This document shows, piece after piece, positions 19,806 to 31,172 of a stretch of 64,000 nt of DNA. A model generated the notes under the pieces. It ran no database searches and was not told the DNA's origin. It saw only the letters and a program-made list of their open reading frames with translations. Source of the DNA: Aminobacter ciceronei (GTDB lineage: Bacteria > Pseudomonadota > Alphaproteobacteria > Rhizobiales > Rhizobiaceae); contig NZ_JACJHY010000011.1 in the NCBI RefSeq assembly GCF_014138625.1, forward strand, positions 62,001 to 126,000, written 5' to 3'. Numbering within the stretch: position 1 is the stretch's first letter; each line of letters opens with the position of its first letter. The position numbers and the translations under genes are program-made.

Positions 19806-20720
19806 TCAGCCAGCAGCCCTGCGCAGCGGCTGGCGCAGGATCGCCGAACCTCCCGCCGCCTGGACGGCAAGGCTGCCATAAGTGATGCCGGCGGCAAGGC
19901 AGGCTTGCTCGGACTGACCCGAAAGCCATGCGTCGATGAAGCCTGCATTGAAGGCATCGCCCGCGCCCGTCGTATCGACGACAGGGACCTCTTCGGCCCG
20001 GCGGTGCAGCAACTGGGCAGCGGCCTTCAACCACGCGCCCTCGCCGCCCGCTTTCAGGGCCACGATCGGGAAGTCCCTGGACAGGATCTCGATTGCCGCG
20101 ATCGGATCGTTCTCCTGCGTAATGGCGGTGGCCTCTTCCATGTTGGGCAGGAAGATATCAACGCCGGCGCAGCGATCGAGCAGTTCGGCTTCGTAGATCA
20201 GCGTCTCGTCCCAGCTCGGATCGAGCGAGACGGTCAGCCCCCTGGCCTTGGCGCGGCTGACCAGATCGGGGATCTCGTGCAGCGTGGCATATTCGGCGAT
20301 GTGCAGATGGCCGGCGTCGCTCCAGTCGAGTGCGGCGTCAAGCGTCGCCGGCAGCGCGGTCCCAGCACGCCGCGACAGGAAGGCGCGGTCGTTGCCGATC
20401 ACCGAGGCGACGGTAACCTGCGGCCCGGCACCGGGCGAATGCTCGACGAAGCGCAGGTCGACATTGCTGGCACCGAGCTCAGCCTCGATCCCTGTCGACA
20501 GCGCGTCCGTGCCAAGGCGCGCCACCAGAGCGACTTGACGCCCGGCATGGGCCATGTGGGCGGCCGCAATGAACGCGCCGCCGCCGGCAGCCATCTTCAT
20601 GTCCTGCGCAAACACCTCGCGCCCCGGCTCGGGCAGCGCAGCCAGGCCGGTGAAAATCAGGTCACAGTAAATCCGCCCGATGCTAAGCACCGCCGGACGC
20701 TTTGCATTTTCCGATGTCAT
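19806..20720 (-). CDS. PfkB/ribokinase-family carbohydrate kinase
   Basis: 304 residues. The N-terminal glycine motif AAGGGAFIAAAHMAHAG and the C-terminal PfkB signature DTTGAGDAFNAGF (with the catalytic Asp) are present. It is the last gene of a leftward sugar-type ABC operon and overlaps the ATPase gene by 4 bp. It probably phosphorylates the sugar or sugar-like product released inside the cell. The exact substrate cannot be told from sequence. Confidence 0.9.
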   Translation of the reverse strand: MTSENAKRPAVLSIGRIYCDLIFTGLAALPEPGREVFAQDMKMAAGGGAFIAAAHMAHAGRQVALVARLGTDALSTGIEAELGASNVDLRFVEHSPGAGPQVTVASVIGNDRAFLSRRAGTALPATLDAALDWSDAGHLHIAEYATLHEIPDLVSRAKARGLTVSLDPSWDETLIYEAELLDRCAGVDIFLPNMEEATAITQENDPIAAIEILSRDFPIVALKAGGEGAWLKAAAQLLHRRAEEVPVVDTTGAGDAFNAGFIDAWLSGQSEQACLAAGITYGSLAVQAAGGSAILRQPLRRAAG

Positions 20721-21754
20721 TGCCGGCCCAGGCTCTTCTCGGTCTTGGCGTCGAAGAGATAGAGGCTGCCCGGCGCCGCGCGGCAGGTCAGCGTGCTGCC
20801 CGTCGCGGGGATGAACTTGCTCGGCGCAGTGGCAATCACGGCACTGCCGTCGACATCGAGATGCACCAGCGTCTCCGGTCCGAGCGGCTCGACCGCCGTC
20901 ACCGTTCCGGTGAGCTCCAGACCGCCGTCCGACTTCTCGACGGCTGCAGTCAGTTCGTGCGGGCGCACACCAATCAGGATGTCGCCGCCGGCAGCGGGCT
21001 CGATGCCCTTGCCGTTCTTGCGGCCCGGCACCAGGTTCATCGACGGACTGCCGATGAAGCGCGCGGTGAAGACATCGACCGGGTTTTCGTAGAGATCGGT
21101 CGGCGTGCCCACCTGCAGGATGTGGCCGTCCTTCATGACGACGATGCGGTCGGCCATGGTCATCGCCTCGACCTGGTCGTGGGTGACATAGACCGTGGTC
21201 GTCTTGAGCTTCTGGTGCAGGCGCTTGATCTCGATGCGCATCTGGGCGCGCAGCTGGGCGTCGAGGTTGGACAAGGGCTCGTCGAACAGGAAGGCCGAAG
21301 GATTGCGCACCATGGCGCGGCCGATGGCGACGCGCTGGCGCTGACCGCCCGAAAGAGCCGCCGGACGGCGGTCGAGATATTTCTCAAGGCCGAGGATCTT
21401 GCCCGCCTCTTCGATGCGCTGGTCCTTCTCGGCCTTGGACAGCTTCGAGGTGTAGAGACCGAAGCCGATATTCTGGCGCACGGTCAGGTGCGGGTAGATG
21501 GCGTAGTTCTGGAACACCATGGCGATGTTGCGCTGCTTGGGGTCACGCTCGTTGACCACCTCGCCGCCGATCTTCAGCGTGCCGCCGGAGATGTCCTCGA
21601 GCCCGGCGATCATGCGCAAGGTCGTCGACTTGCCGCAGCCCGAAGGCCCAACGAAGACCACGAATTCGCCGTCGGCGATTTCAAGGTCGATACCCTGGAC
21701 GACGTCCACCTTGCCGTAGCGCTTGACCAGCTTTTCAAGTTCGATCGTCGCCAT
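20717..21754 (-). CDS. Sugar ABC transporter ATP-binding protein (UgpC/MalK type)
   Basis: 345 residues. Walker A is GPSGCGKST, the signature is LSGGQRQRVAIGRAM, Walker B is FLFDEPLSNLDAQLR, and the switch region is YVTHDQVEAMT. A C-terminal regulatory/TOBE domain (about residues 235-345) is typical of the CUT1 family. It overlaps the lyase gene by 4 bp at its 5' end and the kinase gene by 4 bp at its 3' end, so all three are translationally coupled. Confidence 0.93.
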   Translation of the reverse strand: MATIELEKLVKRYGKVDVVQGIDLEIADGEFVVFVGPSGCGKSTTLRMIAGLEDISGGTLKIGGEVVNERDPKQRNIAMVFQNYAIYPHLTVRQNIGFGLYTSKLSKAEKDQRIEEAGKILGLEKYLDRRPAALSGGQRQRVAIGRAMVRNPSAFLFDEPLSNLDAQLRAQMRIEIKRLHQKLKTTTVYVTHDQVEAMTMADRIVVMKDGHILQVGTPTDLYENPVDVFTARFIGSPSMNLVPGRKNGKGIEPAAGGDILIGVRPHELTAAVEKSDGGLELTGTVTAVEPLGPETLVHLDVDGSAVIATAPSKFIPATGSTLTCRAAPGSLYLFDAKTEKSLGRQ

Positions 21755-30277: not shown

Positions 30278-30284
30278 CGGCACG

Positions 30285-31172
30285 GTGACGCCCGAGGCGG
30301 GGGACGAGCGTCACAAGGCCAACCGCGAAGGCATCGTCTGGGTGCTCGCAGACATGCTGCTGGTCTCCGGCGGCATGACGGCGCTCGTCAAGGCGCAAGG
30401 GCTCGTCTATCCGGCGTTCCAGCTCGTCTTCATCCGGGCGATGATCGGCTTGCTGTTCATCCTGCCGCTGATCTGGCGCCATCGTCACCACATCCGTCAC
30501 ACCAGGCATCCCTGGCAGAACGTCTCGCGCATCAGCTGCAACGCCATCGCGCTGACCAGCCAGTTCATGGCCTACACGCTGCTGCCGCTGGCGGTGGTCA
30601 ACGCGCTGAGCTTTTCCAGGCCGCTCGTCACCATGGCCATGGCGGTCGCCTTCCTCGGCGAGACCGTTTCGCGGTTGCGCTGGGTGGGTGCTGCCTTCGC
30701 CTTCGCCGGCGTGCTCGTCATGCTGGCGCCGGGCGGCGTCGAGTGGAATCTCGGCTTGCTTGCAGTGTTTGCTACGATCGTCTTCGGCTCGCTCGCCATC
30801 ATCCAGACACGCATGCTGCGCGATGAAAACACGACCGTGATGATGGTATTCTACACTGTCGGCCTTGCGGTCATCACCGCTGTTCCGGCCATCTTCGTCT
30901 GGCAGCCTGTCAAGACCTTCGACTGGGTGCCCCTGCTCGGCATCGGGCTTCTGGCGCAGGCCGGTCAATACTGCTTCCTGCGCGCCTATCGCCTTGCCGA
31001 TGCCAGCTTGCTCGCGCCGATCGGCTATCTCTCGATCGTCGTCACGACTGCCGCCGGCTATGTCTTCTTCGCCGAAGTGCCCGACCAGCGCATCGTCATC
31101 GGCGCAATCGTCATCCTCGCCGCGTTGCAGACGACCGCCTATCTCGAACGCCGCGCCAACAGGAAGAAGTGA
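30285..31172 (+). CDS. EamA/DMT-family transporter
   Basis: About 295 residues, ten hydrophobic helices in two EamA repeats. The GTG at 30285, just after the PIG-L stop, is chosen; a TTG at 30261 would overlap that gene by 17 bp and is also possible. Neither has a strong ribosome site. DMT proteins often export amino acids or metabolites. Its place behind the PIG-L gene suggests export of a by-product of that pathway, but it could be independent. Confidence 0.85.
   Translation: MTPEAGDERHKANREGIVWVLADMLLVSGGMTALVKAQGLVYPAFQLVFIRAMIGLLFILPLIWRHRHHIRHTRHPWQNVSRISCNAIALTSQFMAYTLLPLAVVNALSFSRPLVTMAMAVAFLGETVSRLRWVGAAFAFAGVLVMLAPGGVEWNLGLLAVFATIVFGSLAIIQTRMLRDENTTVMMVFYTVGLAVITAVPAIFVWQPVKTFDWVPLLGIGLLAQAGQYCFLRAYRLADASLLAPIGYLSIVVTTAAGYVFFAEVPDQRIVIGAIVILAALQTTAYLERRANRKK

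Follow-up and report, generated by a model that had tools for sequence, protein, structure and literature searches.

The lyase class that includes S-(2-succino) lyase typically cleaves O- or N-succino groups to fumarate, according to the available part of one report (PMC9706529). Here we analyze a cluster of nine genes that joins a lyase of the argininosuccinate lyase (ASL, ArgH) family to a CUT1 sugar importer, a PfkB-family kinase, a ROK-family regulator, a large PIG-L hydrolase and an EamA exporter. The cluster occupies positions 19806-31172 of a 64,000-nucleotide stretch of the Aminobacter ciceronei genome (contig NZ_JACJHY010000011.1, positions 62,001 to 126,000), the whole of which is referred to below as the window. 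It looks like an undescribed pathway that splits a conjugate of an amino sugar and a C4 acid into usable sugar and fumarate; a literature search covering few subscription journals, on the topics of bacillithiol, glucosaminyl- and N-acetylglucosaminyl-malate (GlcN- and GlcNAc-malate), the gene set, and PfkB glucosamine kinases, returned no description of it.

The closest described systems compare with this locus as follows. First, ArgH shares with the cluster lyase its fold, residues T161 and H162 and the SS-x-MPQK-x-NP loop (presumably with fumarate-side roles), and a profile score over the cut-off; the cluster lyase differs in the arginine-side region, in its NPV..EH and EDxFF motifs, in its sugar-importer context, and in coexisting with another argH in the genome. 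Second, the ethylenediaminedisuccinate (EDDS) lyase of Chelativorans (PDB 6g3d) is likewise of the ASL family, but its substrate is free of sugar, and it has YTQRKEAQP where the system lyases have YTHGQPAQP. Third, the S-(2-succino) lyase of the yxe loci is also a lyase-class-I enzyme that releases fumarate, and the catabolic locus around it encodes an ABC importer and a deacetylase; its substrate, however, is N-acetyl-S-(2-succino)cysteine, and the available part of the source mentions neither a kinase nor an amino-sugar deaminase (PMC9706529). Fourth, BshB, MshB and Mca have the PIG-L fold, with GlcNAc-malate, GlcNAc-inositol or N-acyl-glucosamine conjugates as substrates, whereas the cluster PIG-L is an 801-aa multidomain protein, far under the cut-offs of those families, in a context that looks catabolic; according to the available part of a review, the LmbE-like enzymes then known all target an N-acyl-glucosamine core, with GlcNAc-malate and bacillithiol conjugates among the examples (PMC4101496). 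Fifth, loci for GlcNAc and N-acetylmuramic acid (MurNAc), with MurQ, NagB-II, NagA and NagK, follow the same logic of CUT1 importer, kinase and glucosamine-6-phosphate deaminase, and one lies elsewhere in the same genome; the cluster would use PIG-L in place of NagA, and the lyase in place of an etherase or glycosidase. Finally, the Amadori (frl) operon pairs the SIS deglycase FrlB with a PfkB kinase, but the six SIS proteins tested from relatives of the cluster do not score as FrlB.

We propose that the cluster is a ROK-controlled catabolic divergon with a general scheme of import, de-N-acylation, fumarate release, phosphorylation and deamination, to which we assign a probability of about 0.58. 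The CUT1 transporter would take up a small conjugate of a C4-dicarboxylate with glucosamine that is N-acylated (probably N-acetylated), and the cytoplasmic PIG-L would then strip the N-acyl group. The ASL-type lyase would split off the dicarboxylate as fumarate by beta-elimination, in lieu of a glycosidase or amidase; the glucosamine set free would be phosphorylated by PfkB; and a NagB-type deaminase, encoded in the operon in some lineages and elsewhere in the genome of A. ciceronei, would yield fructose-6-phosphate for glycolysis. The nine genes include no glycosidase, and release of the sugar by the lyase would explain that lack. The scheme builds on the gene set and its conservation, on protein families, motifs and a tree, on an operator-like site and on the recruitment of deaminases, from which the substrate class, the order of steps and every activity are predicted.

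Layout of the divergent cluster

All nine open reading frames are intact, and Pfam and NCBIfam profile searches agreed with the preliminary description of this DNA as to their families and positions. The left arm, on the minus strand, consists of genes for a solute-binding protein (SBP), two CUT1 permeases, the lyase, a UgpC-type ATPase and the PfkB kinase, in that order. The right arm, on the plus strand, consists of genes for the ROK regulator, the PIG-L protein and the EamA exporter. The features are:

19806..20720, minus strand: PfkB-family sugar kinase (proposed glucosamine or glucosaminide kinase); Pfam PF00294, 123 bits
20717..21754, minus strand: CUT1 ABC transporter ATPase, UgpC/MsmK type; NF008653, 464.3 bits, cut-off 432
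21754..23268, minus strand: ASL-family lyase of a distinct subfamily (proposed to release fumarate); Lyase_1, ASL_C2, TIGR00838 at 308.3 bits, motifs, tree
23272..24123, minus strand: CUT1 permease, MalG type; profile matches, 52% identity to the Deinococcus ficus copy
24120..25058, minus strand: CUT1 permease, MalF type; profile matches, start uncertain (frame open from 25067)
25077..26333, minus strand: SBP; SBP_bac_1, 137 bits, 46% identity to the D. ficus copy
26545..26576, no strand: operator-like imperfect dyad CAATAAGATAATCTACTTGAATTAATCTATTG between the divergent arms; conserved 14-mers
26623..27846, plus strand: ROK-family regulator; PF00480, 172 bits
27872..30277, plus strand: large PIG-L (LmbE-like) hydrolase; PF02585, 63.3 bits, cut-off 28.2
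30285..31172, plus strand: EamA/DMT exporter, accessory; PF00892, 95 bits, start uncertain (30261, 30285 or ~30354)

The pfkB and ATPase genes overlap by 4 bp and the ATPase and lyase genes by 1 bp; the lyase and the adjoining permease gene are 3 bp apart, and the two permease genes overlap by ~4 bp. On the right arm, the gap between the ROK and PIG-L genes is 25 bp, and the PIG-L/EamA junction is set by the EamA start that is chosen. The start of the MalF-type permease was chosen after the annotated copy of Aminobacter niigataensis, after which the SBP start, too, is most likely 26333 (418 aa); the SBP N-terminus by eye resembles a signal peptide. The importer has the components of the CUT1 type, namely, SBP_bac_1, two BPD permeases, and a UgpC/MalK-type ATPase with a TOBE domain; the relatives of the SBP in the PDB are too diverse for naming a ligand.

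The three best 14-mers of the dyad, at three mismatches or fewer, are found in 82/89 other intergenic regions versus 0 or 1/89 shuffled ones, figures that come from loci akin to each other and from simple shuffles. The site occurs once in the whole genome and in the window, and a reversed control pattern gave no occurrence in the genome. Exact palindromes with 7-bp arms were also sought, and none was common to more than three of 90 intergenic regions. The natural reading is that the dyad at 26545-26576 is a putative shared operator for the ROK protein. Searches of the window for tRNA genes, and for Rfam families at gathering score, found none. The neighboring genes at 10605-19779 resemble an aromatic acyl-CoA degradation cluster, and on a related plasmid a salicylyl-CoA 5-hydroxylase is annotated at that place.

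Recurrence of the gene set in two phyla

To count the genes in relatives we used a home-made gene caller, whose counts are depressed by contig ends and missed calls. First, a scan of named genomes by family peptide pattern gave 570 stretches, of which 545 were relatives, and the best 80 of these 545 were kept. A core of five genes (SBP, both permeases, lyase and ATPase) was called in 77/80 of these named loci and all nine genes together in 40/80, with PIG-L in 73, ROK in 76, PfkB in 70 and EamA in 45. Second, in a sample of the order the lyase was found at E <= 1e-80 in 24/297 genomes, that of A. ciceronei included; 22 neighborhoods were taken from the 23 other genomes, one 3 kb contig being left out, and these hold the core five in 15/22 and all nine in 7/22 cases. 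Third, in a sample of the phylum the lyase was found at E <= 1e-110 in 6/398 genomes, again including that of A. ciceronei, with the core five in 5/5 loci and all nine in 1/5. Recurrence of the core five and of all nine genes exceeds chance. On a plasmid of A. niigataensis DMFA1 the same nine genes stand in the same order, with a lyase that is 99.8% identical over residues 1-471 and labelled argH.

The cluster is thus present in many soil bacteria and is not confined to one strain, a finding that the preliminary description had said would count against its reading. The unity of the gene set holds for importer and lyase, but several lineages lack PIG-L and PfkB; and the EamA exporter, which had been taken for part of the system, is optional rather than integral, having been called in just 45 of the named loci.

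Loci of a second phylum were reached by tblastn against plasmid records, and a homologous set of importer, lyase, PIG-L, PfkB and ROK was found on Deinococcus plasmids. In D. ficus the row reads ROK, lyase, large PIG-L, SBP, two permeases, small PIG-L and PfkB; the large PIG-L bears NEW3 and CBM9 domains, and its N-terminus resembles a signal peptide. Identities between D. ficus and window proteins are 46% for the SBP, 44% and 52% for the permeases and 33% for the lyase. The row is as in D. ficus in D. wulumuqiensis and D. actinosclerus, lacks the large PIG-L in D. deserti, and within the stretch seen comprises lyase and importer only in D. aetherius, D. sp. KNUC1210 and D. psychrotolerans. 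Of 36 plasmid records with a close SBP (E <= 1e-70), 17 were examined: in 15 of them the locus includes the lyase, the exceptions being Thermus oshimai and Deinococcus sp. AJ005.

Some relatives, cited here by our locus numbers, have further genes. An AidB-like MBL-fold hydrolase gene adjoins that of the SBP in PIG-L-less loci, namely, L047, L048 and L051 (one genus) and Terrarubrum (L171:5976-6824), where it may replace PIG-L. In 10 loci (L069, L072, L073, L074, L076, L078, L079, L092, L099 and L118) a second CUT1 importer and a MurQ-like gene adjoin the cluster, with a kinase-like gene as well in nine; these names were given by eye, after a tested homologous locus of the A. ciceronei genome. 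In one relative a small glyoxalase-like gene (L140:8760-9164) separates the lyase gene from that of the permease. A contig labelled Bacillus subtilis (L065) bears the rhizobial cluster, with a lyase that is 83% identical, and is probably a mislabelled or contaminated assembly.

The lyase and the large PIG-L protein

The genome has a second lyase of this family (C22:55291-56553), 33% identical to the cluster lyase, which in the alignment keeps the usual ASL motif (TYSKDMQ-EDKE). The cluster lyase is therefore not the only argH of the genome, and an objection raised in advance by the preliminary description, the lack of a second argH, fails. Residues T161, H162, S283, S284, K289 and N291, which we take to be fumarate-side or catalytic residues, are invariant in an alignment of 18 family rows and the organism's own ArgH. 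The motif Y-x-[KR]-D-x-Q-E-D-K, presumably the arginine side of ASL, is missing, and the cluster lyase has D323-M-N-D-S-E-G-E-T-Q in its place.

Four motifs mark the system lyases: first, HNxPFxDxND (HN.PF.D.[NT]D) instead of the ASL arginine-side stretch; second, MPQKRNPVxxEH instead of NPDxxEL; third, EDxFF instead of ED[IV]H; and fourth, VAY[TS]HxQPAQ instead of PG[YF]THLQ. The four occur together in 113/113 called system lyases of more than 440 aa, and in 22/22 system rows of the tree set versus 0/10 others (six ArgH-type and four other ASL-like), with the caveat that part of these motifs is contained in the patterns that found the 80 named loci. In the tree, 15 proteobacterial and seven Deinococcus lyases form one clade (support 97/93) apart from the ArgH rows tested, and support rises to 100/99 once three long rows are removed. 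Forcing the Deinococcus lyases together with ArgH was rejected (approximately unbiased test, p 0.00156). The top Foldseek match of the lyase model is EDDS lyase (PDB 6g3d, 26% identity), and the lyase shares its fold with that enzyme and ASL. Other ASL-like genes adjoin amino-acid importers and MmgE/PrpD genes on Sinorhizobium meliloti pSymB (L168:2887-6894) and in Variovorax (L164:1217-10836), the latter locus also having an Asp/Glu racemase gene; perhaps these loci serve succino-amines.

The large PIG-L protein has an N-terminal PIG-L domain followed by helical, mainly-beta and C-terminal alpha/beta parts. Its metal and catalytic motif (H39-P-D-D-E43, H160, H162 and H163) is invariant in 23 aligned rows. 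The AlphaFold model, with a mean predicted local distance difference test score (pLDDT) of 77.4 and a poor segment at residues 670-738, has MshB as its best structural match. Against the curated NCBIfam cut-offs the protein scores 34.7/277.15 bits for Mca, 29.1/224.35 for MshB and 20.9/195.25 for BshB2, under the cut-off in each case.

A second large PIG-L, 48% identical, is encoded at G000:C1:193637-196024 (L029, L049), with no importer or lyase of the cluster type called within 20 kb. A gene for an MSOX-type amine oxidase, dependent on flavin adenine dinucleotide, lies within the PIG-L arm or adjoins it in L030 (18707-19876), L130 and L132, two of them Devosia by name. In Roseinatronobacter the gene beside the exporter (L173:1547-2200) carries the annotation cysteine dioxygenase family; its product matched no NCBIfam model and none of the called genes of the other loci.

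The freed sugar, the ligand and rival readings

Genes of the glucosamine-6-phosphate deaminase families are present in 11/117 loci with gene calls: NagB in L031 and L132, and NagB-II in L067, L077, L083, L090, L139, L141, L047, L048 and L051, the assignment in L048, L051, L077 and L083 being by similarity only. In seven of the 11 the deaminase gene is the next one 3' of pfkB on the same strand, at -7 to 90 bp; in L141 it lies ~2 kb off in opposite orientation, and in L047, L048 and L051 it is divergent. Annotation and family search gave two more, a Loktanella NagB gene that adjoins PIG-L and a Roseomonas NagB-II gene that follows a ROK-family kinase gene; in both organisms a ROK-family protein takes the position of pfkB. 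By our reading, the deaminase-bearing loci span at least five lineages. A genome of several thousand genes usually has one or two deaminases, and therefore well under one would be expected among the 864 non-system gene calls that form the background in 107 loci.

For NagB (TIGR00502, cut-off 236.9) the Loktanella protein scores 251.6 bits, over the cut-off, and those of L132 (230.7) and L031 (221.7) fall just under it. Six SIS proteins tested have NagB-II (NF046059) as best match, at 263.8-316.1 bits, all under the cut-off of 430, versus 22.4-52.4 bits for FrlB (cut-off 430); these belong to relatives, the window cluster having no SIS gene. Elsewhere in the A. ciceronei genome there is a NagB-II locus with MurQ (over subfamily cut-offs), NagA (318.9 versus a cut-off of 225.65) and a NagK-like kinase, its NagB-II scoring 304.8 for NF046059, under 430; a search for NagB in this genome at E <= 0.001 found none. 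Glucosamine is probably the sugar that is set free, since several lineages have added to the cluster deaminases of two unrelated families, NagB and NagB-II. This recruitment, together with two-phylum conservation and lyase motifs that depart from ArgH at the arginine side, lends plausibility to the outline of conjugate import, deacetylation, fumarate release and phosphorylation first drawn in the preliminary description, which stays a prediction from sequence.

As for the ligand, GlcNAc-O-malate, of bacillithiol biosynthesis, is what we take to be a known metabolite that joins GlcNAc to a C4-dicarboxylate in a fitting way; it, or a bacillithiol-derived relative, would be the best-fitting known natural compound, and a ligand of the GlcNAc-malate type is our tentative candidate. 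A breakdown of GlcNAc-malate or bacillithiol type, with the sugar-acid core being scavenged and an ASL-family enzyme, in place of a glycosidase, opening the malyl glycoside by elimination of fumarate, appears doubtful.

Several observations weigh against the proposed scheme. First, PIG-L and PfkB are absent although importer and lyase are kept in L047, L048, L050, L051, Bosea, Shinella, Terrarubrum and three Deinococcus; many loci are without PIG-L, PfkB or deaminase, and most, that of the window included, have no deaminase in the cluster, related loci not being independent. In one genus (L035-L038) a lone system-type lyase stands beside lactate and glycolate oxidation genes (an LldD-like L-lactate dehydrogenase and, by eye, look-alikes of glycolate oxidase subunits). 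Second, family assignments are loose: most deaminase matches score under curated cut-offs, the window kinase is under the cut-off of every NCBIfam model that it matched, passing no equivalog, and is just 27% identical to the D. ficus PfkB. Four PIG-L proteins were tested and none exceeded any curated cut-off; the small Deinococcus PIG-L scores higher for MshB (160.6 bits) than for BshB2 (83.9) or BshB1 (74.9); and since GalB, a hydratase, has the PIG-L fold too, a PIG-L protein is not necessarily a deacetylase. Third, the cluster lyase passes the curated argH cut-off (TIGR00838, 308.3 versus 279.5 bits), and therefore annotation as argH is to be expected. The join of the two lyase groups in the tree carries a long-branch warning, and the lyase model (mean pLDDT 74.6) falls under 50 at the active-site segments 160-166, 280-291 and 320-328, for which reason its pocket was left uninterpreted. 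As for the ligand, only the presence of PIG-L favors GlcNAc-O-malate over an N-aspartyl amino sugar.

The likeliest rival is an N-linked conjugate, that is, an amino sugar bearing the nitrogen of aspartate (for example, a Heyns- or Amadori-type sugar-aspartate), on which the lyase would act as a C-N lyase and PIG-L on a separate N-acetyl group or on some ligands only. The best sequence and fold matches, ASL and EDDS lyase, are indeed C-N lyases, PIG-L-less loci exist, and the amine oxidase genes of L030, L130 and L132 would fit. We nevertheless consider it unlikely, because it leaves little work for PIG-L, present in 73 of the 80 named loci, and because the six SIS proteins score as NagB-II and not as the Amadori deglycase FrlB. 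An Amadori/FrlB reading was rejected on the same NagB-II-like SIS proteins.

An S-conjugate route seems quite improbable. In it, a thiol glycoside such as bacillithiol or its S-(2-succino) adduct would enter the cell, PIG-L would serve as a conjugate amidase, the cysteine part would leave through EamA, and the lyase would take fumarate off an S-succino or malyl group. The best NCBIfam match of the window PIG-L, weak as it is, is the mycothiol conjugate amidase Mca, a lyase-class-I S-(2-succino) lyase is described in the available part of one report (PMC9706529), and the Roseinatronobacter dioxygenase-family gene lies beside the exporter; yet 35 of the 80 named loci gave no call for the exporter, and that dioxygenase-family protein matched neither an NCBIfam model nor a called gene of the other loci.

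That the lyase is an ordinary ArgH-like or aminopolycarboxylate (for example, EDDS) enzyme, with its neighbors carried along, is very improbable in spite of its TIGR00838 score and its top fold match, given that the other argH keeps the ASL motif that the cluster lyase does not, that in both phyla the lyase is tightly linked to sugar importer, kinase and PIG-L, and that the Variovorax ASL-like gene next to an amino-acid importer lies off the system clade, on a long branch. EDDS, which the preliminary description had listed as a candidate ligand, and other chelators are likewise disfavored by the sugar importer, the kinase, the NagB neighbors and the motif differences. The lactyl ether of MurNAc was ruled out as a target on chemistry, as lactate cannot yield fumarate; and a glycosylasparaginase-type ligand or an aspartate-donor amination was rejected, the nine genes being without such an amidase or partner ligase.

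Taken as a pathway for an amino-sugar conjugate, the cluster would provide a function for a large gene family that is called argH in databases and can be mistaken for arginine biosynthesis, and it represents a catabolic module common to Alphaproteobacteria and plasmid-borne loci of Deinococcus. If the ligand is glucosaminyl-malate, this would be a catabolic route for the core of bacillithiol, with a new chemistry of glycoside cleavage.

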